Below are positions 5,149 through 25,432 of a DNA stretch of 64,000 bases, piece after piece. The stretch is from Halothermothrix sp. (lineage in GTDB: Bacteria; Bacillota; Halanaerobiia; DY22613): contig JAENYK010000007.1 of the NCBI GenBank assembly GCA_016841825.1, positions 112,846 through 176,845 on the forward strand, read 5' to 3'. The translations under genes were made by a program, and so were the position numbers. The stretch's first letter is position 1; each line of letters begins with the position of its first letter. A model generated the notes under the pieces. That model made no database searches, was not told where the DNA came from, and saw nothing but the letters and a program-made list of their open reading frames with translations.

Positions 5149-8100
5149 TTATTGACCCTCCTTTATATTTAACATTATATCAGCATCTGCAACAGCTATT
5201 TCACCTTTAGCCAACTTATCTAATATATTACTTAAATTATCAGATGCCACTGTTTTAACAGGTTCTTTTTTAATTGCTTTCTTCTCTATATAAGCTGCCA
5301 TTTGACTTATAGTCGGATAAGTAAATATGTCAGCTATATTTATAACATTTGGGAACTCTTTTTCTACCTCTTTTAATAGACGTGTTGCCATAATAGAGTC
5401 TCCACCCATTGCACTGAAAACCTCAAAAACATTGATCTCATCGAAACCAAGCAGGTTGGCCCAGATATTTGCAAGCTTAATTTCTACCTCACCTAGTTGC
5501 TGATGATTTTTACCCAAAATTTTAACCGAATCTATTGTGTTATTATCTTTGTGTTTATTATTTGGTCGAGATTTTCTAATCGAAATCTTTAGTTCTTTTT
5601 CAACTTCCTGAGCCAGTTTTGCTTTTAAACTATTTCGCTTTAAGTTAAGCAAATTATAGTCTATCTCACCGATAATAACCCTTGTAACCTTCTTTTCTAA
5701 AACCTTTTCAAACGATTCTAGTGCTAATTTCGTTGATAGAGAAACAAAAATTCCTTCTTCAAGACCATAATCAAAAGCCATTCCTGTCTCTTTCCAGGCC
5801 GGCCAATCTATTGCAATTTTAACAGTTGGACTATCTGATTTAGTATAGACGAAAGAATCTAAATAACAGTTTGCTGCAGTATAATCACCTTGTCCTGGCT
5901 CAGCTAACATTGAAGCAAGTGAAGAGAAGACCATAAAAAAGTCTGGATTATCTACCCTCGTCAATTCATCTAATATCCATGTCCCCTTTGTCTTAGTATC
6001 AATAACTGTTCTAAATTTTTTAATATCTTTATGAATTATAAAACCATCACCTGCCACTCCGGCTCCATGCACGACACCGTCAAGCTTACCAAATTGATCC
6101 CTAAGTGATAATATAAGCTTTTGCATCTGTTGTAAGTCACTAACATCTGCACTATAACAGAACACTTTGGTACCTAACGATTCGATTTCTCTAATACCCT
6201 TTAACTTTTTAAGTAGTTTCTTATCGGTTTCTTCTTTCAGGACTTTATCCCATTCCTCTTTTGCGGGCAAAGATGTTCTATTGACAAGGATTAGGTTTAT
6301 TTTATTCTTACTGGCCAGATACTTTCCAATCTCAAGGCCTATACCACCCATTCCTCCAGTTATGAGGTAAGTTCCTTCAGATTTGATCTTAAGATCTCTA
6401 TGTTCCACCTGTTCTAAATCTACTCTAGCCAACTCTTCTACATACCTTTTATTATTTCGATAAGCTATTAGCTGATTATCTATATTATCCTCAACAATCT
6501 CGTTAATTATCATTGATATTTCGGTATTCGTATCTATATCGATAGATTTAATTTTTAGATTTTCATACTCTAATGGAATAATCTTAGCCAGGCCAAATAG
6601 TGAAGCATTTAGCGGCTTAACTTTAGTTTGCTCAGCAACTACTTGATTAGCATAATCAGAGATTAATATAAAATCAATTCGACTCATATATCTATTGTTT
6701 ATAAATGAGCGTACTAGATAAAAAAGGCTATTAACTCCCAGGTCCTGAGCCTGGTCAAAATCATCTATTTTTTTTACCTCTAAATCATTGAATGCATTGA
6801 ACATATGAATTACCCGGCTGATATCTCTATCTTTTAACTCTTCAGCTAATCTCTGATAGTCAGCTTCATCAAAACTAACTGTATATCTGAAATCATTCTC
6901 TTTTGAAAATTCTTTACCAACCTCTACTTCAATGATGTCGGTATCATCCAGTTTAAGTCCTTTTATTATTTCTTCCACCTTTGGGCTAGAATTTTTAAAG
7001 ATTAATGAAGTTTTGTTATCACTATACTCGCCCATAGTATCACTCAAAGGTTCAGCTATCCAATTGATCTCATAAAACATATTTTTATCTTTTAGTCTAT
7101 GCAAACCATTTTCACTAACCTTCTTTACACTATATTCAGATAGTACAGCAACCACATTCCCTTCTGCATCAGACATTAGAACGTCGGATAAGACTGTCTC
7201 ATTATTATTCTCTAAGGATTCTCTTTTTTTCCAATAACTAATTACTTTTTCAGACATCTGATCATACACTTTTAAGGACTTAAATGTGAATGGTAAAAAA
7301 ACATTACCATCTATGACATCGGTAGTTATATTAATGCACTGATCTAGTAAAGGAGGATATAGGGTATATGATTTTAGATCCCTCTGATATCGTTCAGGAA
7401 CCTCAAAATATATTAAATACTCCCCTTCACCGACATAAACCTTATTTAAGACATCCCACCTATCTCCTACTTGAACTTCACTATCGGTATTTTCTTTCAT
7501 CTCTTTTACCAAAAGGTCGTCAGGATTAATCTGATTATATCTCGCGATAATATCTTTTATAGATTTTTTTGTAGGTTGGACGTGGTCCAACACACAAATC
7601 TTCCCTTCGGCATTCTCAATCCAATTATCCAGATAATCTTTACTTAAGATAGAGAATTTGAGATAATCTTCTTTCTCTTTAACGAGAAGTTGGATCTTTT
7701 TGGGTTGATCTTCTTCTATAATAAATGGAACCTGGAAAATTACATCTTTTAATTCAAACTCCTTGAAATGATAATAGTTTTTTGCTACCTCACAAACCAT
7801 TTCGATGTATGCAGTACCAGGTAATATGAAATGTCCTGATACTTTGTGCTGTTCTAATATCCATTCCCCTTTTACATTGAAATTCTTCTCAAAAATTTTC
7901 ATCCCCATAGTTTCAACTGAACATCTATCAAGTAATGGATGAATACTACTATCAGTTTTTAATATACCATCAAATTCAATCCAACAGCGTTTCTCTTCGA
8001 ATGGATATGTAGGTAAGCTTAGCTTATTATATTGTCTATTTTTATACAAATTTTCCCATTTTACTTCAGCACCCTGTATATACATCTGAATAATATCCTC

Positions 8101-9897
8101 TAAAATATATTTATTATCTGCAACTAATTTACAATCCAGTAGTTTTTCGTTGGCCTTTTTACTAATCTTTTTCTTATCCGATTCACTAATAACCTCTAAA
8201 CCTTCTATATTCCCGGAATTAGGTACAATATTGTGATAACCATAGTAAATTCCAGGTGGTAGATCATCTTCTAAATTTAAGGTTTCTAAAATATTAAGCT
8301 TATCTTTAAGTTCACTAATATCAGATAAGAGTATTGCCATTCTATATTCGTGATGCCCTCTTCCAGTATTTGCAGTATAGCAAATGTCTGCCAAATTAAG
8401 TTTGTTGTGATTTTTTATAAATTTTGAATAATTTTTCACCAATATTTTTAAACTTTCAATATTTTTAGCAGATAAAGTTAAAACATTGAGCTGGTCTTCG
8501 GTATTTACCTCCTCTTTAATTGGTGCCTCTTCTAAAATCATATGACAGTTTGTTCCACTAAGCCCAAAGGAACTTATTCCACATCTTCTAATACTATCGT
8601 TAACCTCCCAATCGTTTAAACAGTCATTTACATAGACAGGAGACTCTGTAAAATCAATTCTTCTATTGGGACGTTTAAAATGTAATGTCGGTGGTATTTG
8701 CCTGTTTTTCAACGCAAAGATTACTTTTACTAATCCTGCCATCCCTGCTGCATGATCTAAATGACCAACATTACTTTTTACTGAACCGATTGCACAAAAC
8801 TGTTTTCTTTGTGTGTAATTTTTAAACGCCCTCTGGATACCACTAATCTCAATGGGATCACCAAGTTCAGTACCCGTTCCGTGTGCTTCAATATAAGTAA
8901 TGGTCTCTGGATCTATATCGGCATCCTGCCAGGCCCTTAAGATAACATCTTCCTGGGCTGATGAGTTTGGTGCTGTTATACCATTAGATCTGCCGTCCTG
9001 GTTAATTGCACTCCCTTTGATTACTGCATAAATATTGTCCTTATCCTCCACTGCTCTTTGTAATGGTTTTAAGATTAACGCAACTACCCCTTCTCCTATG
9101 CCTGTACCATCGGAACTATCATCGAAGGTCTTTGCTCTGTCATCCGATGATTCGATACCAATACCTGCACTTTCAGAGCCTTTCACAGGAAGTAGTTCAA
9201 GTTTTACAGAACCTGCTATTGCCATGGAACAGTCTCCATTCCGCAAGGATCGACAAGCAATATGTGTTGCTACCAGAGCCGATGAACACGCTGTATCTAT
9301 TACCATACTTGGTCCCTTTAAATCAAGCATATATGCTATTCTGCTTGCAATAATCGATGTAACATTGCCGGCTACTGAAAGTTCTGTAGAGTCTGGTGCC
9401 ACTCGTTTCACATACCTATTATATCCTTCTTCAAAGTCACCACTATACCCAATAAACACCCCTGTACTTGAGCCCTTTAATTTCCCACCGCCGTAAGCTG
9501 CATCTTCAATGGCAGAATATGCCGTTTGTAAAAACAGTCTTTGGTTTGGATCCATCAGACTCGCTTCTTTTGGTGATATTGAGAATAGCTTGTAATCAAA
9601 TTTATCAATCTCTGTCATATATCCACTTTCAAGATATTCAGGGAGCAGAGCCGAATTTTGAGATTTATAAATACCATCACTATCTTTTTTCCTATTCTCC
9701 GGTATAGGGCTTACCATATCCATACCTATCGAGAGTTGTTCCCAAAATTCTTGTACATTATGACTATTTGCAATTTTGCCTGCAACACCTACTATGGCAA
9801 TATCCTTTTGAGGGGTCTTCTTAATCTTAATCTCAGTGTCAAGATCGTATTCTGAAAGATTAAGACTATCTAAGCTAGGGAATTCAGACATTTTCAT
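5149..9897 (-). CDS. Trans-AT polyketide synthase module KS-DH-KR-ACP (1582 aa)
   Basis: First PKS in transcription order, so it should accept the peptidyl chain from the NRPS. Domains are: a short N-terminal linker 1-30; ketosynthase about 31-460 (IDTACSSALV, C204; H339 in AHGTGT; H379 in VGHLDHAAG); a linker ending SLPTYPFEEKRCW near 628-639; a dehydratase about 650-930 with intact HKVSGHFILP (H684, G688, P693) and Asp852 in LYPPLLDQC; a ketoreductase about 950-1420 with TGGMGGIG (1180-1187), SSLAS and Tyr1339 in GDYTAAN; and an ACP with Ser1501 in GGDS. No AT domain lies between KS and DH. The KR has AGD where B-type KRs have LDD, keeping the last Asp. The ATG has AAAGGAGGG before it and lies 9 bp after the transferase stop. 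Confidence 0.94.
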   Translation of the reverse strand: MKMSEFPSLDSLNLSEYDLDTEIKIKKTPQKDIAIVGVAGKIANSHNVQEFWEQLSIGMDMVSPIPENRKKDSDGIYKSQNSALLPEYLESGYMTEIDKFDYKLFSISPKEASLMDPNQRLFLQTAYSAIEDAAYGGGKLKGSSTGVFIGYSGDFEEGYNRYVKRVAPDSTELSVAGNVTSIIASRIAYMLDLKGPSMVIDTACSSALVATHIACRSLRNGDCSMAIAGSVKLELLPVKGSESAGIGIESSDDRAKTFDDSSDGTGIGEGVVALILKPLQRAVEDKDNIYAVIKGSAINQDGRSNGITAPNSSAQEDVILRAWQDADIDPETITYIEAHGTGTELGDPIEISGIQRAFKNYTQRKQFCAIGSVKSNVGHLDHAAGMAGLVKVIFALKNRQIPPTLHFKRPNRRIDFTESPVYVNDCLNDWEVNDSIRRCGISSFGLSGTNCHMILEEAPIKEEVNTEDQLNVLTLSAKNIESLKILVKNYSKFIKNHNKLNLADICYTANTGRGHHEYRMAILLSDISELKDKLNILETLNLEDDLPPGIYYGYHNIVPNSGNIEGLEVISESDKKKISKKANEKLLDCKLVADNKYILEDIIQMYIQGAEVKWENLYKNRQYNKLSLPTYPFEEKRCWIEFDGILKTDSSIHPLLDRCSVETMGMKIFEKNFNVKGEWILEQHKVSGHFILPGTAYIEMVCEVAKNYYHFKEFELKDVIFQVPFIIEEDQPKKIQLLVKEKEDYLKFSILSKDYLDNWIENAEGKICVLDHVQPTKKSIKDIIARYNQINPDDLLVKEMKENTDSEVQVGDRWDVLNKVYVGEGEYLIYFEVPERYQRDLKSYTLYPPLLDQCINITTDVIDGNVFLPFTFKSLKVYDQMSEKVISYWKKRESLENNNETVLSDVLMSDAEGNVVAVLSEYSVKKVSENGLHRLKDKNMFYEINWIAEPLSDTMGEYSDNKTSLIFKNSSPKVEEIIKGLKLDDTDIIEVEVGKEFSKENDFRYTVSFDEADYQRLAEELKDRDISRVIHMFNAFNDLEVKKIDDFDQAQDLGVNSLFYLVRSFINNRYMSRIDFILISDYANQVVAEQTKVKPLNASLFGLAKIIPLEYENLKIKSIDIDTNTEISMIINEIVEDNIDNQLIAYRNNKRYVEELARVDLEQVEHRDLKIKSEGTYLITGGMGGIGLEIGKYLASKNKINLILVNRTSLPAKEEWDKVLKEETDKKLLKKLKGIREIESLGTKVFCYSADVSDLQQMQKLILSLRDQFGKLDGVVHGAGVAGDGFIIHKDIKKFRTVIDTKTKGTWILDELTRVDNPDFFMVFSSLASMLAEPGQGDYTAANCYLDSFVYTKSDSPTVKIAIDWPAWKETGMAFDYGLEEGIFVSLSTKLALESFEKVLEKKVTRVIIGEIDYNLLNLKRNSLKAKLAQEVEKELKISIRKSRPNNKHKDNNTIDSVKILGKNHQQLGEVEIKLANIWANLLGFDEINVFEVFSAMGGDSIMATRLLKEVEKEFPNVINIADIFTYPTISQMAAYIEKKAIKKEPVKTVASDNLSNILDKLAKGEIAVADADIMLNIKEGQ

Positions 9898-9906
9898 GAC
9901 CCTCCT

Positions 9907-11160
9907 TTATCTAGGCATTTTAAAGTTGGGAAATAGTCCTCTTGTTCCGGTCTCATCAAAAACTTGATTAAATCTTTCTATCTGTTCATTAACCGGAACC
10001 TGCTTCGTCTCTAATATCGATTTAAGCATATCTAATGCTTCTTCCATCTGCTGTAATGTAGGTTCTCCTTCACTAGCTTCGATTTCTTCTTGTATCTTTT
10101 CAATCCTTTTGTATGGTTTGACTACGCCTTTTTGATATTCTACTTCATTCCAATTGAAATTACGAGTCGAAACCGCGATAGCCATACACTTAGTAATAAC
10201 TGTAATTTTCTCATTTATTTCATACTCTAACTCTTTTTTTAGAGCATTTATATCTTCGTTGCTATCATATGAAAATACAGCGATAGATTTTGCAGAATTT
10301 TTCATAAATCCCTTTAAGATCGCCTTTGGTCCCAACTCTACACCATAATGAATACCTTTATCAAGCATATAACTCATGCATTCTTGCCATCTTACTGGTT
10401 CTATTAGCTGTAACGATAAGTTCTCAACTATGCTATCCACACCTTTATACGGCTTAGCAGTAACATTAGACAAAACTGGATACTTAAGTTCTGAAAATTT
10501 GCACTTTAAAAGCTCTTCTTTAAATCTGTCTGCAGCAGATGTCATTAATGGACTATGGAAAGGAGCACTTACTTTTAATGGTATAGCATTTGCTCCCATT
10601 TCAGCCAGTCTAGCTGCTGCAGCGTCAACTGCTGCTTTATGTCCCGAGATAACTATCTGCTGTTTTGAGTTATAATTTGAGATTACAACTATGTTCCCAT
10701 CTTTAGAAACATCCTCACAAACCTTATTAATTTCCTCCATTTTAAGCCCACTGATAGAAGTCATACCTCCTACTCCCAGTGGGACTGCCTCTTGCATGAA
10801 CTGACCTCTTTTTTTGACCAATCTTAGCGCATCTGAAAATTTAATAACACCTGCACAAGTTAGAGCAGTTATCTCTCCTAAACTATGTCCTGCACACAAT
10901 GCAGGCATAATTCCTATCTCTTTTAAATAAACTCTAAAAGCTGCCACACTCATCGTCAAAATTGCTGGTTGTGCATTTTCAGTTTTAGTCAACTCGTTGA
11001 TATCACCATTTAAACATAACTCCTCTAGATTAAACCCTAATATTTCGTTTGCTTCAGCAAATGTAGCTTTTCCCTCCTCAAAGTTCTGTAATAACTCCTT
11101 TCCCATCCCTATGTACTGTGAGCCTTGCCCAGGAAATAATAATGATACCTTCTTGCCCAT
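9907..11160 (-). CDS. Discrete malonyl-CoA:ACP transacylase (trans-AT), 417 aa
   Basis: This free-standing acyltransferase most likely loads malonyl units onto the ACPs of the AT-less PKS modules. It shows the FabD hallmarks LFPGQGSQYIGMGKE at the N terminus, the nucleophile elbow AGHSLGEITAL, and PFHSPLM for the catalytic His. FabD proteins are near 310 residues. This one carries about 100 extra C-terminal residues of charged, helical character (EASEGEPTLQQMEEALDM), as in the roughly 400-residue FenF/ItuD transferases of iturin-type clusters. AAGGGG lies upstream of the ATG. It sits between the NRPS and the first PKS in a continuous operon, 30 bp after the NRPS stop. The role as the cluster's trans-AT is inferred from context and from the absence of AT domains in the modules. 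Confidence 0.92.
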   Translation of the reverse strand: MGKKVSLLFPGQGSQYIGMGKELLQNFEEGKATFAEANEILGFNLEELCLNGDINELTKTENAQPAILTMSVAAFRVYLKEIGIMPALCAGHSLGEITALTCAGVIKFSDALRLVKKRGQFMQEAVPLGVGGMTSISGLKMEEINKVCEDVSKDGNIVVISNYNSKQQIVISGHKAAVDAAAARLAEMGANAIPLKVSAPFHSPLMTSAADRFKEELLKCKFSELKYPVLSNVTAKPYKGVDSIVENLSLQLIEPVRWQECMSYMLDKGIHYGVELGPKAILKGFMKNSAKSIAVFSYDSNEDINALKKELEYEINEKITVITKCMAIAVSTRNFNWNEVEYQKGVVKPYKRIEKIQEEIEASEGEPTLQQMEEALDMLKSILETKQVPVNEQIERFNQVFDETGTRGLFPNFKMPR

Positions 11161-11190
11161 AGTTAATCATCCCCTTATAGTAAATTTTAA

Positions 11191-14100
11191 TCACTTAAAA
11201 TTAGATGCTATTAATTTGATAACTTTAACATAGTCCTTAATCAAACTAAATACCTCTGTATCTATCAATCTGGCAGCATTATATTTACATAAACATCTAA
11301 GACTACTCTCTCCATCTTTGATACTTATCACTATGTCATAAGCTTTATTCTGATTATCATCTATATTTTCACCAAATATAAATAGAGGTATTATTTCATT
11401 AATTTTTTTACTTATTAATAATCTCTTAGCATGTTCTAACGAATATTGGTCATTTTTGGATATATGACTTAATTTAGTGTTAATAGCTTTAAATAAATTA
11501 TTGAAATTATTGATTATTTGAAATTTTATTCCTAAATTTAACATTTTATTGTGTAGTGAAGGTATTATAACTTGTACCCAGACCATATCCTGTTGACTAA
11601 CTTCGTGTAACAGATACACATAACATCCAAGTAATACATCTAAAAGATTAATATTATTAGCAGTTGCTAAATTATTAAGCCCATTATAAACTTCTTGTCC
11701 AATAGTAAACTCTAATAACTCTTCTACAAATCCTCCAGCATTATTGAAAAATTTTGCCGGTAAAGTAAAACCATTGATATTTATTTTTTTACTCTGTTCT
11801 CCTCCAACCTCCATAAACTTCGATAACTTTTCTATTGTTGGATAAGCAAAGAGGTCGGGTACGGTTACCAAACCTTTATAATCTTTGTCTAATTCTGAAC
11901 ACATTGCGACAATACTCATAGAATTTCCACCTATATCAAAAAAATTGTCATAAATCCCAACAGAATCTCTACCGAGAATCTTTTGCCATAACCTACTTAA
12001 ATACATTTCAACATCAGTTTCAGCCTTTTTAAACTCAACCCCTATATTCTGTTCCTCCATATTGATTATAGGTAAAGACTTTCTATCTATTTTCCCATTT
12101 GAAGTTAAGGGAATGTGATCTAGATGCATATAAATACTCGGAATCATATACTCCGGTAATTTATCAGCAAGATATTTTTTTATAGCATTAGTGGGAATCT
12201 CTGTTTCTGAGACATAATAAGCTACAAGTTGTTTATCCATCCTGACTGTATCTATAGCTATAACTACACAGTCATTAATCTTTCCGTGTTCTAAAAGAAT
12301 ATTTGTTATCTCATTTAGTTCTATTCGATATCCTCTTATCTTAACTTGATAGTCTAACCTACCCAAATATTCTATATTGCCATCGGAAAGCCACCTTGCT
12401 AGATCTCCAGTCTTGTACATCTTTCCTACGCCGAATGGGTTAGTTACAAATTTTTCTCCTGTCAACTCTTCTCTATATAGATATCCTCTTGCTAATCCAT
12501 CACCTGCAATACATAATTCTCCTGGTACTCCTATCGGTTGTAAGTTATGGTTTTCATCTAATATATATATATGTAAGTTAAATATCGGTCTTCCAATCGG
12601 AATATTCTTATACTCTTTTTCTACTGTAAAACTGGCACTTACCACAGTAACTTCCGTTGGACCATAGTTATTTACTAACGTGTACTTTTTCTTCTGATAG
12701 TTATTTAGTTTATCTCCTCCAGTGAGCAACATTCTTAGAGAACTATTTTCTAATTGTAAAAATTTTTCACACATCTGGGTCGGCAGAAAACTAATGCTAA
12801 TAGCATTATTCTCATAATACTCATTTAACCTCTTTATATCTAATTTTAACTCTTTTTCTATGATATATAGGCTCGCACCACAGATTAAATAAGGGTAGAT
12901 CTCCCATACTGACGCATCAAAACCAAAGGATGCATATTTTGTTGCTCTATCAGCTTCAGTTACCGAATACCTTTCGTTGTGCCAGAAACATAAATTAATT
13001 AATGATCTGTGTTCAACCATTACCCCTTTCGGTCGTCCCGTAGAACCCGAAGTATATATTATATAGGCTAAACTATTGGAAGAATTCATAATTTTCAGAT
13101 TACTACTTACACCTTTATACAGCTCTTTATCTTCTAAATCTAGTACTTCAACTTTCGACTCTATTTTTTCTTTTAACTTACTTTGTGTTAACAAGATATC
13201 AATCTTACTGTCTTGGATTATAAATTTAATTCTTGTTTTAGGATATGACTGATCAATTGGTAAATAAGCTCCCCCCGCCTTTAAGATAGCTAAAACCCCA
13301 ATAACCATCTCTAATGACTGTTCTGGCATGATACCTACTTTCATTTCCGCTTTAACTCCTTTAGTTCTCAATACCCTTGCCAACTGATTAGCTTTTTGAT
13401 TTAACTCTTGGTAGGTCAAAAATGTATCTTTATATACTACAGCAACATTTTCTGGCGTCTTCTCTGCCTGTTCTTCGAAAAGTTCATGAATCGTTCTCTC
13501 TTTTGGATATTGAGATTCTGTATCGTTAAACGTATATAGTAACTGTTCTCGTTCTATTTCGCTCACCACTTCAATTCTACCTATTTCAATATCTACATTT
13601 TTTACTACTTCTTTTACCACTTTAATAAAATGATTACCCAATCTTTCTATTGTGTCTTTTTTAAATAATCTGGTTGCATACTCTAATTGACATTTAAGCT
13701 TATTTTCTATTTCTTCTGCAAATAAGGTTAAGTCAAACTTAGAAACATTGAAGTCAAAATTATAATCTATAAACTCTAATTCATCTGTTTGCAACGTCTC
13801 AATATCCATATTTTCCATAGCAAACATTACATCAAATAGTGGATTTCTGCCCATATCCCTTCGTAAATTTAAATCTTCTACCAACTTTTCAAACTGATAG
13901 TCCTGGTGTTCAAATGATTGTAATATATTCTCCTTTACTTCATCAAGGAAATCTATAAAAGTTTTGCTACTTTTAGGATAGTTTCTCAAAGCTAAGGTAT
14001 TTACAAACATTCCCACTATATTCTCTATATCGCTATGATTTCTGCCCGCTATCGGTGAGCCAATAATTATATCATCTTGACTTGAGTATTTTGATAATAA

Positions 14101-16704
14101 TACATTATAAACTGCTAATAGTACCATATATAAAGTTGTCTCCGTCTTTTTACAGAGATTTTTTAATGATTCTGTTAAATTTTCGTCTAATTCAAAGTTT
14201 ATGATACTTCCTTCAAAACTCTGTATATCTGGTCTAAGATAATCCACGGGTAGATCTAAAATAGGTATCTCAACAGAAAATCTTTCTAACCAAAATCTTT
14301 TTTGCTCTTCAATCTTCTTAGTTTTGAATAGTTTATTCTGCCAGTTAACAAAATCTTTATAGTGAATCTTTATTTCTGGCAATTTATGATCTCGATATAG
14401 TTCTCTAATCTCTTTTATGAGTATATTAAGTGATACGCCGTCTGCTATTGTATGATGCATATCTATCACCAATATATGCTCATTAATTGATAATTCTATA
14501 ATACATATTCTAATTAGAGGTGCTACACTTAAATCAAAAGGACGCACAAAATTCTTAATTATCCTCTTTTCTTCTCCTCTATCTGCCTTCAAAATCTTAA
14601 CTTCAAGATCTAGATCCTTAAAATTACTAATTTTTTGTACTGGTTCTCCATCTATAAAGGAAAACGAAGTTCTTAAACTTTCATGTCTTTTTAACATTTT
14701 GTAAAAAACATCTATCAAGCGTTTCTTATTCAAATGACCAATAATTTTTTTCGCTATTGGCAGATTATAATTGATACTGTCTTTTTTCATTTGGTTTAAT
14801 ACTATTAATCTTTTTTGAGCAGATGATACTGGGTGGTACTCCCTGGCCTCTACCTTTTCGATCTTTACAAATGTAGTTCTCTTAGCTTTTTGTATTTCTA
14901 CTGCTAAATTTTGAATTGTTTTTAGCTCAAATATTTCCCTTAATCCCATTTTCACGTTAAAGTCTTTTTCTATTCTAGAAACTAATTGAGTAGCTTTTAA
15001 AGAATGTCCTCCAAGATAAAAAAAATTGCTGTTAATACTAATTTCTTTTATCTTTAATATATGTTTCCATATTTTTACTAATTTTAATTCCACTAGATTT
15101 CGTGGAAGTACATATTCATTTGCAGTATATTTTTTGTCTAGAATATCTGGTAAAGCAGTTCTATCTATTTTACCATTTGGGTTTAATGGCAACTTATCTA
15201 ACAGTACAAAAAAAGACGGAATCATGTAATCAGGTAGTTTATTTTGTAAATATAGTCTGATTTCAGACTCTAAATTGTCAATCTTTATTTTTTCTTCCCA
15301 ATTCTGATTGGGAACTATATAAGCAACTAACTCTTGAGAATTGTCAGTATTTTTTACTATAATATAACTTTCTTTAATTGTTCTATATTTATTTAAAATA
15401 GACTCTATCTCACCTAATTCGACCCTATTCCCCCTTATTTTAACCTGGTCATCTTTTCTGCCTAAAAATTCAATATGACCATCAGGCAACCATCTGGCCA
15501 GGTCACCTGTCTTATAGATCTTCCCTTCTCCAAAAGGATTATCCATAAATTTATCCTTTGTTAAATCTTCTCTATTCAAGTATCCTCTGGCTACTCCATC
15601 TCCAGCTATACATAATTCTCCTTCTTCTCCAGGTAACATTAGTTGATTATTGCTATCTAGTATATAAACCTGTGTATTATTAGAAGGAATGCCTATAGGC
15701 ACAATATCTGTGTTAATGTTATAGGGTATATGATAATGCAATGTATCATCAGAACATTCACTCTGTCCATATGCATTTACTAAACCGATTTTATATTTTT
15801 TATAAAAATTATTCACTAGATCATTGATTACCCTTTCTCCTGTTAAAACTAAATATCTTAAATCTGGTAACTCTATTTTTTTCATACCTTCATCTAGTAA
15901 ATTTAAGTAAATTTTCAGAGCAGAAGGTACTATTTCTAAGACATTAATTCCATCTTCTTTTGCTCTATTAATTAAATCATATATATGTAAGTTTACTTTT
16001 TCTTCAAAAATTATTAATTTACTCCCTGTAATAAGTGGAGCCCAATTTTGCCATATTGATGCTACAAAACTACTATTCAAATTATTACACAAATTATCCT
16101 CAGAAGATATTTTTAATACACTGATTTTAGTAAATATATGATTGATAATGCCTCTATGCTCTAATAACACCCCTTTAGGGTTACCTGTTGACCCTGAAGT
16201 ATAAACTATATATGCCAAATTTGTTGCTTTAGCTTGATAATCAATGTTATCCTTAGAATAGTGAGATACATTTTTGAGTTCTACATTTAATTTTTTACAT
16301 TTAACATCTTCTTCATTATTTATAAAACTTGTTAGTAAAATTTCTAGTTTACAATCCTTTATTATAAAATCTCTTCTGGCCTTTGGATTCTTTAAGTCAA
16401 TACAAACTATAATTCCTCCGAGTTTTAAAATACTTAACTGACTCACTAACAGTTCTAAAGAAGAAGGCATGCTTACACCAACCACTGTACCTTCTTTAAC
16501 ATAATTTTCTTTTAATAAATGTGCCAATTGGTTTGCTTTTTCATCTAACTCCTTATAGGTTAGTTCTTGATCTTGAAATACTACCGCTACCCTATCTGGC
16601 GTTTTTTCTACCTGTTTTGCAATTAAACTTTGAATTGTTTCATACTTTGGATAATCTACTCGTGTATTATTAAATGCTGTCAGTATTTTTTCTCTAAAGT
16701 TCAA
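11191..16704 (-). CDS. Nonribosomal peptide synthetase A-PCP-C-A-PCP with a terminal half condensation domain
   Basis: Start chosen at TTG 16704, because GGAGGTG is well spaced there while the longer frame starts inside that site. Length is 1837 aa. Approximate order: A1 15-520 (YTSGSTGNPKG; NGKIDRTALP), PCP1 540-610 (LGGHSLKATQ), C 620-1060 (MHHTIADGVS, the HHxxxDG motif), A2 1080-1570 (YTSGSTGRPKG; YGPTEVTVV; NGKIDRKSLP), PCP2 1590-1660 (IGGNSMSIV), then about 165 residues. Manual alignment to GrsA gives A2 the code DAWFLGNVVK, the classical leucine code. A1 gives VAWEVTADDK, with Val in place of the amine-binding Asp235, so its substrate is unassigned. It begins with A and has no upstream C domain, so it is probably the loading protein. 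The tail matches only the C-terminal half of a condensation domain. Confidence 0.93.
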   Translation of the reverse strand: MNFREKILTAFNNTRVDYPKYETIQSLIAKQVEKTPDRVAVVFQDQELTYKELDEKANQLAHLLKENYVKEGTVVGVSMPSSLELLVSQLSILKLGGIIVCIDLKNPKARRDFIIKDCKLEILLTSFINNEEDVKCKKLNVELKNVSHYSKDNIDYQAKATNLAYIVYTSGSTGNPKGVLLEHRGIINHIFTKISVLKISSEDNLCNNLNSSFVASIWQNWAPLITGSKLIIFEEKVNLHIYDLINRAKEDGINVLEIVPSALKIYLNLLDEGMKKIELPDLRYLVLTGERVINDLVNNFYKKYKIGLVNAYGQSECSDDTLHYHIPYNINTDIVPIGIPSNNTQVYILDSNNQLMLPGEEGELCIAGDGVARGYLNREDLTKDKFMDNPFGEGKIYKTGDLARWLPDGHIEFLGRKDDQVKIRGNRVELGEIESILNKYRTIKESYIIVKNTDNSQELVAYIVPNQNWEEKIKIDNLESEIRLYLQNKLPDYMIPSFFVLLDKLPLNPNGKIDRTALPDILDKKYTANEYVLPRNLVELKLVKIWKHILKIKEISINSNFFYLGGHSLKATQLVSRIEKDFNVKMGLREIFELKTIQNLAVEIQKAKRTTFVKIEKVEAREYHPVSSAQKRLIVLNQMKKDSINYNLPIAKKIIGHLNKKRLIDVFYKMLKRHESLRTSFSFIDGEPVQKISNFKDLDLEVKILKADRGEEKRIIKNFVRPFDLSVAPLIRICIIELSINEHILVIDMHHTIADGVSLNILIKEIRELYRDHKLPEIKIHYKDFVNWQNKLFKTKKIEEQKRFWLERFSVEIPILDLPVDYLRPDIQSFEGSIINFELDENLTESLKNLCKKTETTLYMVLLAVYNVLLSKYSSQDDIIIGSPIAGRNHSDIENIVGMFVNTLALRNYPKSSKTFIDFLDEVKENILQSFEHQDYQFEKLVEDLNLRRDMGRNPLFDVMFAMENMDIETLQTDELEFIDYNFDFNVSKFDLTLFAEEIENKLKCQLEYATRLFKKDTIERLGNHFIKVVKEVVKNVDIEIGRIEVVSEIEREQLLYTFNDTESQYPKERTIHELFEEQAEKTPENVAVVYKDTFLTYQELNQKANQLARVLRTKGVKAEMKVGIMPEQSLEMVIGVLAILKAGGAYLPIDQSYPKTRIKFIIQDSKIDILLTQSKLKEKIESKVEVLDLEDKELYKGVSSNLKIMNSSNSLAYIIYTSGSTGRPKGVMVEHRSLINLCFWHNERYSVTEADRATKYASFGFDASVWEIYPYLICGASLYIIEKELKLDIKRLNEYYENNAISISFLPTQMCEKFLQLENSSLRMLLTGGDKLNNYQKKKYTLVNNYGPTEVTVVSASFTVEKEYKNIPIGRPIFNLHIYILDENHNLQPIGVPGELCIAGDGLARGYLYREELTGEKFVTNPFGVGKMYKTGDLARWLSDGNIEYLGRLDYQVKIRGYRIELNEITNILLEHGKINDCVVIAIDTVRMDKQLVAYYVSETEIPTNAIKKYLADKLPEYMIPSIYMHLDHIPLTSNGKIDRKSLPIINMEEQNIGVEFKKAETDVEMYLSRLWQKILGRDSVGIYDNFFDIGGNSMSIVAMCSELDKDYKGLVTVPDLFAYPTIEKLSKFMEVGGEQSKKININGFTLPAKFFNNAGGFVEELLEFTIGQEVYNGLNNLATANNINLLDVLLGCYVYLLHEVSQQDMVWVQVIIPSLHNKMLNLGIKFQIINNFNNLFKAINTKLSHISKNDQYSLEHAKRLLISKKINEIIPLFIFGENIDDNQNKAYDIVISIKDGESSLRCLCKYNAARLIDTEVFSLIKDYVKVIKLIASNFK

Positions 16705-16816
16705 ATTCCACACCTCCAATATCCTGTAGTTCCATGTTGTCTACAATTATTATAATATTATATTTAATTATAAATAATTCCATATATATTAAAAAAACAT
16801 CTATAATTCACATATC

Positions 16817-17542
16817 TTAACCATTAATTAATTTGTTCTCGATAATCTTGATGATCTGTACAACATTATCTTTATCGTTTATAAAAAAGTGACCCCCTGG
16901 AAAACACTGAATACTTATTTCATTTTTCGTATACTGCTGCCATCCTGCTAATTGCTCTGTCGTTAATTTATCATCAGAACCTGTAAATACTACAAAATCA
17001 GTTTCTAAAACAGGTTTACTTTGTTCTTTAAACTCTTCTTCATATTTATCAACTGCATCAAAATCAGCTGAAAATATTGGAATAAATATATCCTTTAATT
17101 CAGGATTAACAAAAATTTCTGCAGGAGTTCCTCCATATTCTAAAACACGGTCTTTTAACTTTTCTTCTGGTGAGTTATATATTTTTTTAATTTTTGTTGG
17201 TAAATGTGGGGCTTGTCTGCCAGATAAAAATAAACACTTTGGACTAGGTAATCCTTTTTCTGTAATTTTATTGGTTAATTCGTGAGCAATAATTGCTCCC
17301 ATGCTATGTCCCAAAATCGCATATTCTTCATTTAAATAAGATTTAATTTGTCCATACGCTTCTACAACCATAGAATCAATTGATTTAAGTAACTTCTCTT
17401 TTAACCTTTTCCCATGACCAGGTAAAACGACAGGAATGATTTCTATATTTTCGCAAATTATACTCCCCCAAATTTTATACTCCTGAGCTGAACCTCCAGC
17501 ATAGCTTATACAAATTAACTTAATTTTATTTGAATTGTCCAT
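16817..17542 (-). CDS. Type II thioesterase of the NRPS/PKS cluster (alpha/beta hydrolase)
   Basis: A single-domain external thioesterase of the GrsT/SrfD/RifR kind. In this family it typically removes wrong acyl groups from carrier proteins. Visible motifs are SYAGGSAQEY near the N terminus, the nucleophile elbow ILGHSMGAIIAHEL, the lid region ending in PELKDIFIPIFSADFDA, and the catalytic His in PGGHFFIND. The start was placed at ATG 17542, with GGAG 7 bases upstream, rather than at 17566. Length is 241 aa, normal for the family. It is first in the cluster and 112 bp before the NRPS start. No terminal TE domain is visible in the proteins within the window, so a release role cannot be excluded. 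Confidence 0.92.
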   Translation of the reverse strand: MDNSNKIKLICISYAGGSAQEYKIWGSIICENIEIIPVVLPGHGKRLKEKLLKSIDSMVVEAYGQIKSYLNEEYAILGHSMGAIIAHELTNKITEKGLPSPKCLFLSGRQAPHLPTKIKKIYNSPEEKLKDRVLEYGGTPAEIFVNPELKDIFIPIFSADFDAVDKYEEEFKEQSKPVLETDFVVFTGSDDKLTTEQLAGWQQYTKNEISIQCFPGGHFFINDKDNVVQIIKIIENKLING

Positions 17543-17566
17543 ATAATTCTCCTTACTTGATTTCAT

Positions 17567-18780: not shown

Positions 18781-18924
18781 TTATACAGGGTTATCTTCTG
18801 GTGGAATAACGACTGAACAAGAGTCTGACCCTGGATCACCCCATGGTCCTCCTGCCAAACCAAACCCCCCAACACAGGAAACTAATAAAACAGCCAACAC
18901 CAAAATACACAATAACTTTTTCAT
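18781..18924 (-). CDS. Small exported peptide, candidate signalling peptide precursor (47 aa)
   Basis: Too short for most gene callers. The ATG at 18924 has a GGGGGG ribosome binding site 8 bases upstream and begins 18 bp after the stop of the TPR protein gene. The product starts with a textbook signal peptide (MKKLLCILVLAVLLVSC) and continues as a short Gly/Pro/Asp-rich tail ending in SVVIPPEDNPV. LVSC fits a lipobox, so a lipid-anchored precursor is possible. The arrangement of a TPR protein followed by a tiny secreted peptide is that of Rap-Phr and other RRNPP systems, in which the processed C-terminal peptide is re-imported and binds the TPR protein. That function is inference; no known mature pheromone was recognised. 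Confidence 0.7.
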   Translation of the reverse strand: MKKLLCILVLAVLLVSCVGGFGLAGGPWGDPGSDSCSVVIPPEDNPV

Positions 18925-18942
18925 GAAATCAACCCCCCGCTC

Positions 18943-19917
18943 TTAAATTTTTTTGTAAAGTGATGTACCTTCAAAATCTTTTTTTAAAGTCTTTTCAAGA
19001 GACTTAAAACATTCAAGGTTATGTTCATTAGTAACTTCCATTATCTTTCCTAATACATCAATCGCATAAGTTAGTGCTTCTGCCTGCTTAAAATGTTCGA
19101 AAGCAAGATATAAAGTATCTAACGCAGTGAAAAGCTGATCTTCCCTTAATTCAATCTCAGCTTTGTTGTAGAAAGTTTTGGCAACTTCTAAATTATTCGT
19201 GTATTTTTGCCCGATTACTTCTGCTCTATTTAAATACTCTAAAGCTTTTTCAGAAATACCGTCTTCTTCAAATGATATGTATATAACCGCCAAATTATTC
19301 AACATCTTTGGAAGGTCTCTTTCTTCAAAATACTGTAAAGCTTTTTCACCTATTTCTATAGCTTTATCTATATCTCCAAGGTTAAAATAATAAACACTAT
19401 AATTGTTTAAAATTTTCCCTTTGAGTTTATCATCTACCTCATTAAAGTGAGCATTAGCTAATTCCAGATATTTCTTCATCATTTGGAGAGAATCATCTTT
19501 TTTCTCTGATTTATATTTTACCCAGTTGATCCACCAATTATTTAGTAAGACAATTATTAATAACTCAACATCATCTTGAACCTCATTAATCGACTCTCTA
19601 AAAATGTTTTCAGCCTTTTCTATTTCTCCTAAATATCCAAAAATTACACCTCTATAGTTCTTGAGTCTGACTGCATTTCCACCAGAATTATACTCCAAAG
19701 CATGGTGTATATATTTTAAAGCTCTGTTATGTTGATGGAATTCGTACAAACCTTTTGCATGTAAAAATGTAACCTTCGCAAGCATTTCTACATCATCGCC
19801 TGCTAGAACCTCAGCTATACTAATCTTCGACATAAATCCTAATAAATCCTTCCCTTCCAACATTTTTTCTGCTTCTTCATAAAATATTATAGGTGACAAT
19901 TTTATTGTTTTACTCAC
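18943..19917 (-). CDS. TPR-repeat protein, possible peptide-binding (Rap/RRNPP-like) regulator (324 aa)
   Basis: Almost entirely helical, with tetratricopeptide-type repeats, for example HNRALKYIHHALEY, GDIDKAIEIGEKALQYFEE and SEKALEYLNRAEVIG. No N-terminal helix-turn-helix is visible, so if it belongs to the RRNPP group it is closer to Rap phosphatases (usually about 380 aa, TPR with a small N-terminal bundle) than to PlcR/NprR. It starts at a GTG with GGGGGAAGG upstream and is preceded by a consensus promoter. The exported peptide gene follows 18 bp after its stop. It is oriented toward the PKS/NRPS operon and could control it, but that link rests on proximity only. Confidence 0.75.
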   Translation of the reverse strand: MSKTIKLSPIIFYEEAEKMLEGKDLLGFMSKISIAEVLAGDDVEMLAKVTFLHAKGLYEFHQHNRALKYIHHALEYNSGGNAVRLKNYRGVIFGYLGEIEKAENIFRESINEVQDDVELLIIVLLNNWWINWVKYKSEKKDDSLQMMKKYLELANAHFNEVDDKLKGKILNNYSVYYFNLGDIDKAIEIGEKALQYFEERDLPKMLNNLAVIYISFEEDGISEKALEYLNRAEVIGQKYTNNLEVAKTFYNKAEIELREDQLFTALDTLYLAFEHFKQAEALTYAIDVLGKIMEVTNEHNLECFKSLEKTLKKDFEGTSLYKKI

Positions 19918-21592: not shown

Positions 21593-21598
21593 AAAAAA

Positions 21599-21636
21599 AG
21601 AACTCTGTAACTGTTATAGTTTACAGAGTTCTTTTT
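21599..21636. terminator. Bidirectional intrinsic terminator between convergent units
   Basis: 10-bp arms AACTCTGTAA and TTACAGAGTT, with TTTTT after the stem on the plus strand and a run of nine T on the minus strand. It ends the plus-strand acetyltransferase transcript and the minus-strand small-peptide array. Confidence 0.85.
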
Positions 21637-21666: not shown

Positions 21667-21753
21667 TCATCTCCTCCACCCACCTTTACCGTGAGCATGA
21701 CGAATATCTTTTAGTTTTAACTCGTTCAATTCTTTACTCATAAGCAAAATCAT
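21667..21753 (-). CDS. Short ORF 9 of the small-peptide array (28 aa)
   Basis: ATG at 21753 with GAAAGGAGGTGAAGCTA upstream, a near-perfect anti-16S match. This site overlaps the stop codon of short ORF 8, so the two are probably translationally coupled. The product begins MILLMSKELNELKLKDI and ends in a basic, glycine-rich tail (HAHGKGGWRR). No similarity was recognised. It is the last frame of the array before the terminator. Confidence 0.6.
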   Translation of the reverse strand: MILLMSKELNELKLKDIRHAHGKGGWRR

Positions 21754-21758
21754 TAGCT

Positions 21759-21872
21759 TCACCTCCTTTCTTTGCTAATCTTTTTGGCAAACCTCTTTTT
21801 AGCAGACCGCTTCTGCATTGCTCGCTCGCGCACTTCCTCAAATAATTGATCCAAGAGCATATACTTTAACAT
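21759..21872 (-). CDS. Short ORF 8 of the small-peptide array (37 aa, strongly basic)
   Basis: ATG at 21872 preceded by GAAAGGAGAAGAGAAAG. It begins MLKYMLLDQLFEEVRERAMQ and continues into a lysine/arginine-rich tail (KRSAKKRFAKK and on to KERR). It has a hydrophobic or amphipathic head and a highly cationic end, like the other peptides. Its 3' end contains the ribosome binding site of short ORF 9. Function unknown. Confidence 0.62.
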   Translation of the reverse strand: MLKYMLLDQLFEEVRERAMQKRSAKKRFAKKISKERR

Positions 21873-21927
21873 CTTTCTCTTCTCCTTTCTACTCGGTAGT
21901 TATCCGACTTCTGCTACTTTCTACTAC

Positions 21928-22020
21928 TTACTTATTTCTCTTGCCGGATTTACGCATTTTCATCGCCTGCTGTCTTTTTTCATCGACAATTAGATTTGCT
22001 AACATGAGTTCTAATAACAT
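21928..22020 (-). CDS. Short ORF 7 of the small-peptide array (30 aa)
   Basis: ATG at 22020 with AAAAGGAGGAATAACG upstream. Begins MLLELMLANLIVDEKRQQ and ends RKSGKRNK. It is clearly related to short ORFs 4 and 5 in its pattern: an acidic residue at position 4, a hydrophobic LAN/IAK block, IV or II followed by acidic and basic residues, and a GKxNK-type tail. This paralogy supports real coding. Confidence 0.65.
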   Translation of the reverse strand: MLLELMLANLIVDEKRQQAMKMRKSGKRNK

Positions 22021-22038
22021 CGTTATTCCTCCTTTTAT

Positions 22039-22119
22039 CTAGAATTGCTTATTTCTCTTCTTTGACTGAAATGTTCTCTCCTCAACCATACTTTTTATCA
22101 ACACAAATTCAAAACTCAT
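22039..22119 (-). CDS. Short ORF 6 of the small-peptide array (26 aa)
   Basis: ATG at 22119 with TAAAGGAGGGGGAAAA upstream. Begins MSFEFVLIKSMVEERTF and ends in a basic tail (SKKRNKQF). It shares the hydrophobic head, EER/DEK turn and K/R/N-rich end with its neighbours. No homologue recognised. Confidence 0.6.
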   Translation of the reverse strand: MSFEFVLIKSMVEERTFQSKKRNKQF

Positions 22120-22232
22120 TTTTCCCCCTCCTTTACAGTTAATTTTACTTTTTAATCAAAATTTTCTATCACTCTTAATTTAACATCACATTTTTTATTT
22201 TATGCAATAGCAACATGACTTATTCCACTTTT

Positions 22233-22331
22233 TTAATATTTGTGAATCAGTCGATTTTTCTTACCAGGTTTAAATTGACCACTTCGTTCAGCAACTATTA
22301 ATTTTGCAATCATCATCTCAATAAACATCAT
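22233..22331 (-). CDS. Short ORF 5 of the small-peptide array (32 aa)
   Basis: ATG at 22331 with AGAGGGAGGAATTA upstream. The frame stays open to 22415, but no good ribosome binding site lies there, so the internal start is preferred. Begins MMFIEMMIAKLIVAERSGQ and ends in KPGKKNRLIHKY. It is paralogous to short ORFs 4 and 7. The in-frame upstream part reads MVAHVLIVEKEKK, itself resembling IAKLIVAER, so an older duplicate may be fused in front. Confidence 0.62.
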   Translation of the reverse strand: MMFIEMMIAKLIVAERSGQFKPGKKNRLIHKY

Positions 22332-22451
22332 TAATTCCTCCCTCTGATAACTATTATCATAATATTTTTTCTCTTTTTCAACGATCAGCACATGTGCTAC
22401 CATATGCACCAACAAGATAAAGTGTTACCCAAAATTATCCTTCTTACAAAC

Positions 22452-22532
22452 CTACTTATTGTTTTTACCGGTCTGAAGTTCTTTTGCCTTATCCTGAATT
22501 ATTGCTTTAGCAATCAGATATTCCATAAACAT
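22452..22532 (-). CDS. Short ORF 4 of the small-peptide array (26 aa)
   Basis: ATG at 22532 with GAAAGGGGGTTCATAGATT upstream. Begins MFMEYLIAKAIIQDKAK and ends QTGKNNK. Closest in pattern to short ORFs 5 and 7. Function unknown. Confidence 0.62.
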   Translation of the reverse strand: MFMEYLIAKAIIQDKAKELQTGKNNK

Positions 22533-22585
22533 AATCTATGAACCCCCTTTCATAATAATTATCTATTTCTGTGTCAGTGGGACAT

Positions 22586-22657
22586 TTATCTTCTCTGCAA
22601 TTTGCTGGTTTTAGCGGGGCGGTCAACCTTTATCTCCAAAATATACTGTCTCATCAT
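22586..22657 (-). CDS. Short ORF 3 of the small-peptide array (23 aa)
   Basis: Starts at ATG 22657 (a second ATG follows directly) with GAAAGGGGTGATTGCT upstream. Begins MMRQYILEIKVDRPAK and ends KLQRR. Same size class, basic end and strong ribosome binding site as its neighbours. Confidence 0.55.
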   Translation of the reverse strand: MMRQYILEIKVDRPAKTSKLQRR

Positions 22658-22683
22658 AGCAATCACCCCTTTCTGATTAAATT

Positions 22684-22737
22684 TTACTGTCTATACCGTT
22701 CAATAAGTTTTTGTTGGTCTGGAATTTTTATTAACAT
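22684..22737 (-). CDS. Short ORF 2 of the small-peptide array (17 aa)
   Basis: ATG at 22737 with CAAAGGGGGGAGATAAG upstream. Reads MLIKIPDQQKLIERYRQ and then stops. It is the first frame after a terminator-like hairpin at 22779-22805, so it could act as a leader peptide for the rest of the array. Confidence 0.5.
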   Translation of the reverse strand: MLIKIPDQQKLIERYRQ

Positions 22738-22778
22738 CTTATCTCCCCCCTTTGGACAACTCTCTAAAAAAGCAAAAG

Positions 22779-22805
22779 GTACTATAGGAAATAGTCCTAT
22801 AGCAC
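22779..22805 (-). promoter_or_regulatory. Terminator-like hairpin inside the small-peptide array (possible attenuator)
   Basis: Arms GGTACTATAGGA and TCCTATAGCACC pair with one mismatch around a short loop. On the minus strand the stem is followed by TTTTGCTTTTTT. It lies between short ORF 1 and short ORF 2, so it may end a first transcript or attenuate transcription into the other eight frames. Confidence 0.6.
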
Positions 22806-22922
22806 CAAATTAAAAAATAACACATTTTAACAAATTATTAGCGTAAGAAAAGGACCATAGGCCTAAACGACCCAGATCCCAGATTAACGCATGAATATAT
22901 ATCTTAACATATGCAAGTTAAG

Positions 22923-23039
22923 CTAACTAATGCCCAACTCCTTAAAGGGTAGGTCGCAAAAATATTCGCTTTTATCAAAGGACATAACAAAAAATCTCTT
23001 TATCACAGCAATTCTAATTTTCTCAATCGTCTTTTGCAT
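22923..23039 (-). CDS. Short ORF 1 of the small-peptide array (38 aa)
   Basis: ATG at 23039 with GAAAGGAGGTTGCAAA upstream. Begins MQKTIEKIRIAVIKRFFVMS; the later half contains EYFCDLPFKELG and the only Cys of the array. The head is amphipathic and cationic. It is separated from the other eight by 185 bp that contain the terminator-like hairpin. No family recognised. Confidence 0.58.
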   Translation of the reverse strand: MQKTIEKIRIAVIKRFFVMSFDKSEYFCDLPFKELGIS

Positions 23040-23145
23040 TTTGCAACCTCCTTTCAAAAACTAGTAATATCTGCTTTACTTTGTTGATTATATACTCTTC
23101 ACTTCTCAATGTCAAGAGTATTTTGGTAAATATTTTTGTTTTTTT

Positions 23146-23189
23146 ATAGACTGGCTTAACTGGTGAATACACCAATTAAGCCAGTCTAT
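23146..23189. repeat. Long near-perfect palindrome (20-bp arms, 4-base loop)
   Basis: ATAGACTGGCTTAACTGGTG and CACCAATTAAGCCAGTCTAT are inverted copies with one mismatch. It lies between the chemoreceptor 3' end and the small-peptide array. T-tracts are on the wrong side for terminating the chemoreceptor transcript, so this may be a repeat element rather than a normal terminator. Confidence 0.7.
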
Positions 23190-23229
23190 TCAAAATTTTA
23201 ACCCTCCAAAAACTCTGTAAAATCAATAA

Positions 23230-25197
23230 CTACACGTTAAACTTACTCTTCAATTCTCCCATCTGTTCTGACAAAGTCTCCAGGTTAGTAACCAATTGAC
23301 TCATCTGGTCTACTACCTTTAGATTCTCTTCTGAACTTGCAGCAATCTCCTCAGCACTGGCGGCTGATTCTTCTGCTTGAGATGCTACATCAGAGATATT
23401 TCTGGCGATAGATTCACCTGCTTCTTTAATCTTATCAATATGAGAATTCATTTGATTAATCATCTGATCAGATGCTAATACTGCCTGTGCAATACGCTCA
23501 AATGTATCACCGGCAACCTCAGTTAACTTAACACCTTCAGCAAAATCATCTACCTGATCCTGAATCTCCTCACTAACTTGATCTACCCGGGTCTGAACCT
23601 GATTTATCAAGTTTCCAATACGCTCAGTAGCACTTCTAGACTGTTCAGCCAGATTACGAATCTCCTGGGCAACCACAGCAAAGCCCAGACCAGCTTCCCC
23701 GGCTCTGGCAGCCTCAATAGAAGCGTTCAACGCCAATAGATTAGTCTGTTCTGTAATCTGATTAATTAGGTCAGTAATCTCATTAATCTCATCAGATTTT
23801 GTTTTCAAATCTCCCATACCAACCATAATCTGCTGCACATTCTTGTTCACTCGAACAATGGTATTTAAAGCATCACTAATACCCAACTTACCCTGATCAG
23901 CATTGTGCATAACTTGATTAGAATTATCTTTCACATCTTCCATCTGACCTGCGAAATCGTTAATCGATGTGGAAATCTCACCGGCAAAATGAGACGTCTC
24001 AGAAAGATTAATCGATTGACTTTCAGAGATCTTGGCTAGTTCATTGATGATAAAATTATTCTCCGAACTAGAAGCAGCCATTCCCTGAAAAGCTTTAAAT
24101 AATTCTTTAGTTGCCCGGTATACGCTATCCCCCGATTTGATTAGCAGTTGGATAACTTCCTGTAAGCTATTGGTCATCTGATTAAAACTAGTCTCCAGTT
24201 GACCTAATTCATCCTTACGATTAAGTTGTGCCTTAACCGTCAAATCGCCACTAGCAACTTTACCTGCAACCATCTGAACTACCTTCAATGGTTTAATCAA
24301 ACTATATTGAACAAACACAGCCATAGCCAGAAGGGCCAAAATAAACGCAATGATACTCACAACTATAATTGTCTGACTAACATCTTGCCTTGACTGAAAA
24401 GCTACCTTTTGATCTTCTAGAACCAAGAGATATCCATTCAACATCGGAAAAGCACGCATAAAGGCTAAATATTTTTTGTTATCGATGTTAACCATTTGGT
24501 ATTCTCTTTGCTCAGAAGCAACTATTTCATCAAAAAAACCAGCCTCAGAATAATCTTTTTTATTAATATAATCAAGACCATCAGCTGTAACAAAGTGAAG
24601 GTGCTTAGTAGCTGTATTCACATCACCAGCAACTTTATCTAACAATTTCTGAATAGAGACTTCAAAAAAGATCATACCACTGTTACTTTTTCGGATAGAC
24701 ATGGCTGGTCCTGGAAAAACCAAACAAACCTGACCATCTGGTGCAGTATAAGGACCATCCCAAACCTGAAGTTCCTCTTCTGAACGACCGATCCACTTCT
24801 CTTCCCAAACTGGTGCATTCTCTAGCTCTGTCTCAAATTGAGGATATTCATATTCGTTAGCCAGAGAAAGACCTGTTCCGGAAGGTCGAACATATACTCT
24901 GCTAATCAATGAATTAGCTGCAAAAACCTCATCCATACGTTGATTAAACAAAGTTGTGGAACCCATCAGAAAAAGTCCAACCGTATCACCACTAAGTACT
25001 TGTTCAAATCTGCCGTTAAGATCATTTAATTCATTCTCGATCTGGATATATAACCTGTCCAACAAATATCCGTTAATACTATTTATATCTGTCTCGAGAA
25101 CTGTATTCATATGAACATAGACTATCCCACCAATAACAGATATAGGTACTAATAGTGCTAAAAATACCATAACGATAAACTTATTCCTTAAACTCAA
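23230..25197 (-). CDS. Methyl-accepting chemotaxis protein
   Basis: A membrane chemoreceptor of 655 aa, starting at TTG 25197 with GGAGG 8 bases upstream. The GTG at 25206 lies inside that site. Layout: TM1 about 7-30, a periplasmic-side sensor of roughly 250 residues of the dCache type ([19 protein letters not shown]), TM2 about 280-302 ([19 protein letters not shown]), HAMP ([19 protein letters not shown]), then the signalling domain with the conserved hairpin [20 protein letters not shown] and [16 protein letters not shown]. It should signal through CheA/CheW. The ligand cannot be read from sequence. It stands alone. Confidence 0.95.
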
Positions 25198-25432
25198 GCA
25201 GAACACCTCCTTTACTGATAAAATATCTATATATAATTTTCGATAAAAAGAATATATTTCCTTCTTTTAGTTAATCTTTTTTAGTACATTCTCAAAAAAT
25301 TTTTATAAGTTATAACAAATGTGCTGTATAATTATATCTACCTACTCAATAGTCAATTTGTCCTATACATTACTAATCTTTTCACAATTATAGACATAAA
25401 ATTGGGTTTTTTTACATAGTTTACCTGAACAA

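Follow-up and report, generated by a model that had tools for sequence, protein, structure and literature searches.

On the minus strand of the analyzed stretch of DNA (64,000 nucleotides, referred to here as the window), nine ATG-started frames of 17-38 codons, w1-w9, follow one another from position 23039 to 21667, each preceded by a strong Shine-Dalgarno (SD) site. This run is not a product of chance, and comparison with related copies indicates that at least w4, w5, and w7 are real genes, belonging to a small-protein family, termed A, which together with its partner peptide B appears to be undescribed in the libraries searched. The explanation favored here, held as a whole with moderate confidence, is that the array arose by tandem amplification of this lineage-specific family and that its products are amplified, regulated, tiny intracellular proteins that help or bind partners. 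The frames and their products are as follows.

w1, 22923-23039, minus strand: 38 aa, MQKTIEKIRIAVIKRFFVMSFDKSEYFCDLPFKELGIS; SD AAAGGAGGT; no convincing homologue found
w2, 22684-22737, minus strand: 17 aa, MLIKIPDQQKLIERYRQ; SD AAAGGGGG; fits neither family A nor B
w3, 22586-22657, minus strand: 23 aa, MMRQYILEIKVDRPAKTSKLQRR; SD GGGGTGA; fits neither family A nor B
w4, 22452-22532, minus strand: 26 aa, MFMEYLIAKAIIQDKAKELQTGKNNK; family A
w5, 22233-22331, minus strand: 32 aa, MMFIEMMIAKLIVAERSGQFKPGKKNRLIHKY; family A
w6, 22039-22119, minus strand: 26 aa, MSFEFVLIKSMVEERTFQSKKRNKQF; probable family A, 42% identity with w7
w7, 21928-22020, minus strand: 30 aa, MLLELMLANLIVDEKRQQAMKMRKSGKRNK; family A
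w8, 21759-21872, minus strand: 37 aa, MLKYMLLDQLFEEVRERAMQKRSAKKRFAKKISKERR; alike in build, not standing out in the independent model
w9, 21667-21753, minus strand: 28 aa, MILLMSKELNELKLKDIRHAHGKGGWRR; SD AAAGGAGGTGA; homologue not found

The place, strand, lengths, and ribosome binding sites of the nine frames agree throughout with the original prediction, which had also considered nine strong sites in step with nine frames very unlikely by chance. That judgment is borne out by shuffling: when frames had to start at ATG, span 14-45 codons, and reach an SD score of 9.5 or more, 300 dinucleotide-preserving shuffles of the 1.4 kb contained 0.25 such frames on average and never more than 2, compared with the 9 observed. 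In the 1.19 of the 5.08 Mb of the same genome covered by the census, same-strand runs elsewhere never exceeded three, and intergenic SD-led short frames occurred about once per 15 kb.

Other SD-led short frames in this genome (G000) were recorded separately. A run of three, whose products (one of them MLTIKSNVLINDEIISPIKPPLSGYVALPIEPLPGIYPEIPILK) are rich in proline and unrelated, is located at L164 8198-8890 (G000:C24). Two similar frames, MIDKMWELDNLDFGDLIVGPMPPYGSVTIIEPIQPIVKA at L213 5741-5860 and MINKYWDLTMYNFGDETDPPQTPYGAGTAVER at L214 7173-7271 (G000:C22), lie approximately 21 kb apart and are possibly pheromone-like or RiPP-like. At L159 3496-4046 (G000:C14), ISIHAPAWGAT is common to two frames separated by about 460 nt, which looks like DNA-repeat read-through, perhaps CRISPR-like, rather than genes.

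Family A is characterized by a head of the form M-F-x-E-x-x-L-A-K-x-I-I-x-E-R. Among 59 class genomes, a profile of w4-w7 was convincing only in this genome, with a weak second match (E 0.08) on contig C10, where two SD-led frames (L036 5795-6016) encode an A peptide, MFIEHELAKEIIREKLKQAEDYRRAKSIR, and a B peptide, MMLDPQLMEENKRDGIKKSPIRWKN, flanked by genes that we take, from sequence resemblance, to be a yhcC-like radical-SAM gene and a MATE gene. Searching with A revealed another locus of the genome on C24, comprising three consecutive frames (A, B, and A-like), and one locus in G001, which represents another genus and is the sole other genome of the bacterial family examined. Because the A-B pair of G001 is flanked by the same yhcC-like and MATE neighbors, with B following A as at C10, the two loci are, judging from gene order, orthologous. 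By gene content and kinship, the host of the array seems related to Anoxybacter (Halanaerobiales).

An independent family model, from which all window copies were withheld, was derived from the three A peptides together with the A-like peptide of C24 and was compared with 10464 decoys consisting of natural short frames from these genomes. The scores of w4, w5, and w7 were reached by none of these decoys, that of w6 was marginal (140 decoys), and those of w1, w2, w3, w8, and w9 did not rise above the decoy background; resemblance to B was likewise not found in these five. With a model from the three A peptides alone, 0, 1, and 10 decoys scored as high as w4, w7, and w5, respectively. The outside-window scores therefore divide the nine frames into three or four family members and five orphans of similar build, so that only w4, w5, and w7, and probably w6, are demonstrably one family, a distinction absent from the original prediction.

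The codon conservation that had been proposed as a check is present, as family copies, orthologous and paralogous, keep frame, SD site, and peptide while synonymous sites saturate. Between the A peptides of C10 and C24, differences at codon positions 1, 2, and 3 number 5, 5, and 17 (pS ~1.1, pN 0.17), and the comparison of C10 with G001 yields pS 1.03 and pN 0.30. The B pairs range over pS 0.48-0.86 and pN 0.26-0.34, and the window paralogues w4, w5, and w7 over pS 0.66-0.83 and pN 0.30-0.39. Overall, comparisons between copies of A and of B and among w4, w5, and w7 span pS 0.44-1.14 and pN 0.17-0.39 per site, in pairs of 22-29 codons each, so that single ratios are rough and the argument rests on agreement across many pairs. 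Read in this way, the values show purifying selection on the peptides of families A and B.

The earlier statement that no family of this kind is described has held in every library consulted. Pfam, NCBIfam, PADLOC, and Rfam returned no match, with w1-w9 covered variably from library to library, and PHROGs returned only noise (E 0.19 and worse). Comparison of the array DNA with 60 relatives produced AT-rich noise only. Across 398 phylum genomes, model A4 recovered only this genome and G001, the remaining matches being short, partial, and for the most part embedded in longer frames. No confirmed relative emerged from a family-alignment pattern search of GTDB genomes and viral contigs, and no match from plasmids (queried with an A peptide) or phages (queried with w7). 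The B model recovered only the known A-B loci and a weak G001 match (E 0.31) lacking a matching SD-led frame. As such searches are insensitive for peptides of 25-30 residues, absence here signifies the lack of a close relative. A distribution limited to one bacterial family could equally reflect fast-evolving selfish or antagonistic peptides. Two leads were discarded: Rfam matches at a relaxed threshold were attributed to chance, falling on terminators, and the GNAT gene next to the array was set aside as a synteny anchor in GTDB, since its best relatives belong to other lineages and share only about 50% identity with it.

The surroundings of the array contain the following elements.

23230-25206: MCP gene, upstream of the array
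23140-23195: inverted repeat of 26 nt with 88% complementarity, separating the MCP gene from the array promoter
23087-23115, minus strand: SigA promoter of full consensus, TTGACA-17-TATAAT, just ahead of w1
22778-22806, minus strand: hairpin of 12 bp followed by a T-rich tract in the w1/w2 gap, terminator- or attenuator-like, z -6.9
21593-21636: bidirectional terminator hairpin, common to the array and the convergent GNAT gene downstream

The inverted repeat behind the MCP gene probably shields the array from MCP transcription. At the opposite end, the bidirectional terminator already predicted is supported by a folding z of -5.7 on each strand. The spacer of about 185 nt between w1 and w2 is strongly structured over its whole length (z -4.65); since this distance and the terminator-like hairpin part w1 from w2-w9, the nine frames may not form a single simple operon. 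Accordingly, w1 could be a leader peptide or a gene apart, and the array proper would then consist of w2-w9, transcribed either through read-through or from a promoter of lower strength.

The family units are self-contained. They have terminators of their own, and the leaders of C24, G001, and C10 have in common a hairpin that is conserved through two compensatory G-C/A-U pair changes. Their promoters are unusually good matches to the SigA consensus, with 12 of 12 positions in the window, C24, and G001 units and 11 of 12 at C10, a full match having a background frequency of about one per 37 kb. In the C24, G001, and C10a units, a perfect 6-4-6 inverted repeat (TATTCA-N4-TGAATA, TATACA-N4-TGTATA) occupies one fixed position over the spacer and -10, and the other consensus promoters with a 17-bp spacer that were examined match it at no more than 3 of 6 positions. 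This promoter motif occurs three times in 59 class genomes, always at these units, and is absent from the 57 other class genomes searched. The window promoter is overlapped by a different repeat of 8 perfect base pairs, ATACTCTT-N14-AAGAGTAT, which was equaled in 7 of 300 shuffles and could be chance. The consensus promoter, the operator-like repeats, and the w1/w2 hairpin had not been part of the original prediction. As a regulon marker, the 12-mer TTSAGAAGTGAA, present in the window and C24 promoters, was rejected, having one further, unrelated match in 1.6 Mb.

One alternative, although an unlikely one, is that the RNA or the act of translation matters instead of the peptides, with w1 serving as a leader that controls the terminator or with the whole functioning as an SD-rich regulatory RNA. 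Such a function would suit the terminator-like hairpin placed directly after w1, the conserved hairpin of the C24, G001, and C10 leaders with its compensatory changes, and the C10a unit (L036 3948-4190, G000:C10), whose promoter and inverted repeat are of the same kind and whose terminator is similar, with no SD-led frame found within it. However, amino acids are conserved in the family while synonymous sites saturate, C10a reads more simply as a decayed copy than as an RNA-only unit, and an attenuator would have no downstream gene other than w2-w9, the array stopping at its own terminator.

The properties of the peptides bear on the remaining alternatives. Their original description as lacking a signal peptide is sustained by inspection of w1-w9 (17-38 aa), none of which shows a signal-peptide-like stretch. 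Of the proposed hydrophobic or amphipathic head and Lys/Arg/Asn-rich tail, the hydrophobic character (family-A heads being mainly hydrophobic) and the basic tails stand, with a charge of -3 to +3 over the first 14 residues and of +1 to +10 in the tails of w2-w9, whereas amphipathicity does not, as no window peptide exceeds its own shuffles in hydrophobic moment over residues 1-16 (p 0.12-1.0). Conservation in family A lies in the heads and not in the C-termini. A structure prediction for w5 from five sequences gave a helix at 2-16 and a low-confidence tail (mean pLDDT 71). The best 19-residue Kyte-Doolittle mean among the array peptides is 0.86, far below that of a transmembrane helix, and none is indicated.

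Leaderless antimicrobial or membrane-active peptides had been suggested as one role. Peptides of this sort would be exported as they are made and would act on the membranes of other cells, in the manner of multi-peptide leaderless bacteriocins or phenol-soluble modulins, and we consider this role rather improbable. Tandem cationic peptides of this size without a signal peptide, expressed from a strong promoter and strong SD sites, would be in keeping with it, and leaderless bacteriocins comprising as many as four ~30-aa peptides are known (PMC6131525). The array indeed resembles multi-peptide leaderless bacteriocins such as aureocin A70, with its four peptides, in consisting of leaderless, cationic peptides of ~30 aa from tandem genes, and also the phenol-soluble modulin (PSM) alpha operon of Staphylococcus, in which several peptides of ~20-25 aa without a signal peptide, multiplied by gene duplication, share one transcript. 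Known leaderless bacteriocins, however, are accompanied by immunity and transport genes (PMC6131525), and PSMs are amphipathic helices with dedicated ABC exporters (PMC5442197). The neighbors of the array are the MCP and GNAT genes, and neither an immunity gene nor an ABC export gene directly adjoins it or the C10, C24, and G001 units; the C10 and G001 units face a convergent MATE gene, and the C24 unit follows a sugar-ABC/cell-wall gene set. No exporter was found in the search beside the array, no match in the family libraries searched, and no significant hydrophobic moment in any head; strong charge also extends over the full length of the A peptides from C10, C24, and G001.

The suggested role as type I toxin-like peptides, silenced by leader structure or antisense RNA and inhibiting their own cell on release, is equally doubtful. 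A structured leader containing CCTCGGGAGG could mask the SD site in C24 and G001, and hydrophobic heads with basic tails recall membrane-associated type I toxins (Fst/Ldr, Ibs), tiny proteins with a hydrophobic part followed by a cationic C-terminus (PMC8309996). In these toxins, a transmembrane helix is predicted and an antisense RNA is present (PMC8309996), whereas the array peptides do not approach the hydrophobicity of such a helix, promoter sequences on the opposite strand are not above shuffle expectation, and nine genes without antitoxins would be costly. Both the antimicrobial and the toxin roles are thus disfavored, because the helical heads do not appear to be amphipathic or to span a membrane, and because inspection of the array and its surroundings gave no sign of genes for immunity, export, or an antisense RNA.

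Intercellular signaling by pheromone precursors and a TPR-type receptor, to which tandem small peptide genes and a TPR protein gene 1.75 kb past the array would lend themselves, is very improbable, given that signal peptides are lacking, that heads and not C-termini are conserved in family A, that a candidate pheromone gene of its own lies immediately downstream of the TPR gene (18781-18924), and that no receptor gene adjoins the A-B loci elsewhere.

The TPR region is a separate observation: at 18781-19917 on the minus strand, a TPR-repeat protein (18943-19917) is followed by a 47-aa secreted-type peptide, MKKLLCILVLAVLLVSCVGGFGLAGGPWGDPGSDSCSVVIPPEDNPV, and the two look like a receptor-pheromone pair. 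They lie beside a PKS/NRPS cluster on the same strand (325-17566), in which two PKS-like proteins, an acyltransferase, an NRPS, and a thioesterase-like protein were named by inspection.

Under the preferred explanation, that of amplified and regulated intracellular partner-binding proteins, each unit would be transcribed singly from its strong SigA promoter. In the three related repeat-bearing units, a dimeric repressor probably keeps this promoter off until a signal arrives, as suggested by the perfect inverted repeat located there. With its own strong ribosome binding site for each peptide, a unit would deliver several small proteins together at a high level, most likely inside the cell. The short, helical, mostly hydrophobic head would dock on a partner protein or on the inner membrane face, and the tail, which is basic and disordered, most evidently in the window members, may bind an anionic surface (RNA, the ribosome, or lipid, for example); having several copies in tandem would raise the dose and vary the binding face. 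A role as small regulators, the third originally suggested, is possible. SR1P of Bacillus is a single cytosolic small protein that binds an enzyme. By description, the family units are similar to SR1P-type proteins in having a stand-alone regulated transcript for a short soluble protein, although one protein per locus is encoded there, compared with two to nine, including paralogues, here.

A more far-reaching proposal, offered tentatively, is that these loci constitute a new operon class of one Halanaerobiales-like lineage, in which one strong, repressed promoter would drive a diverging cocktail of tiny intracellular proteins with exchangeable docking helices and RNA- or ribosome-binding tails, expanded to as many as nine copies wherever dose or diversity calls for it. 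Genes so short are usually missed by annotation. Peptide selection, shared neighbors, promoters, and inverted repeats together argue that the family consists of real, regulated genes of ~22-32 codons, which makes it testable, and nine frames in a row would represent an unusual tandem amplification among protein genes of the smallest size.
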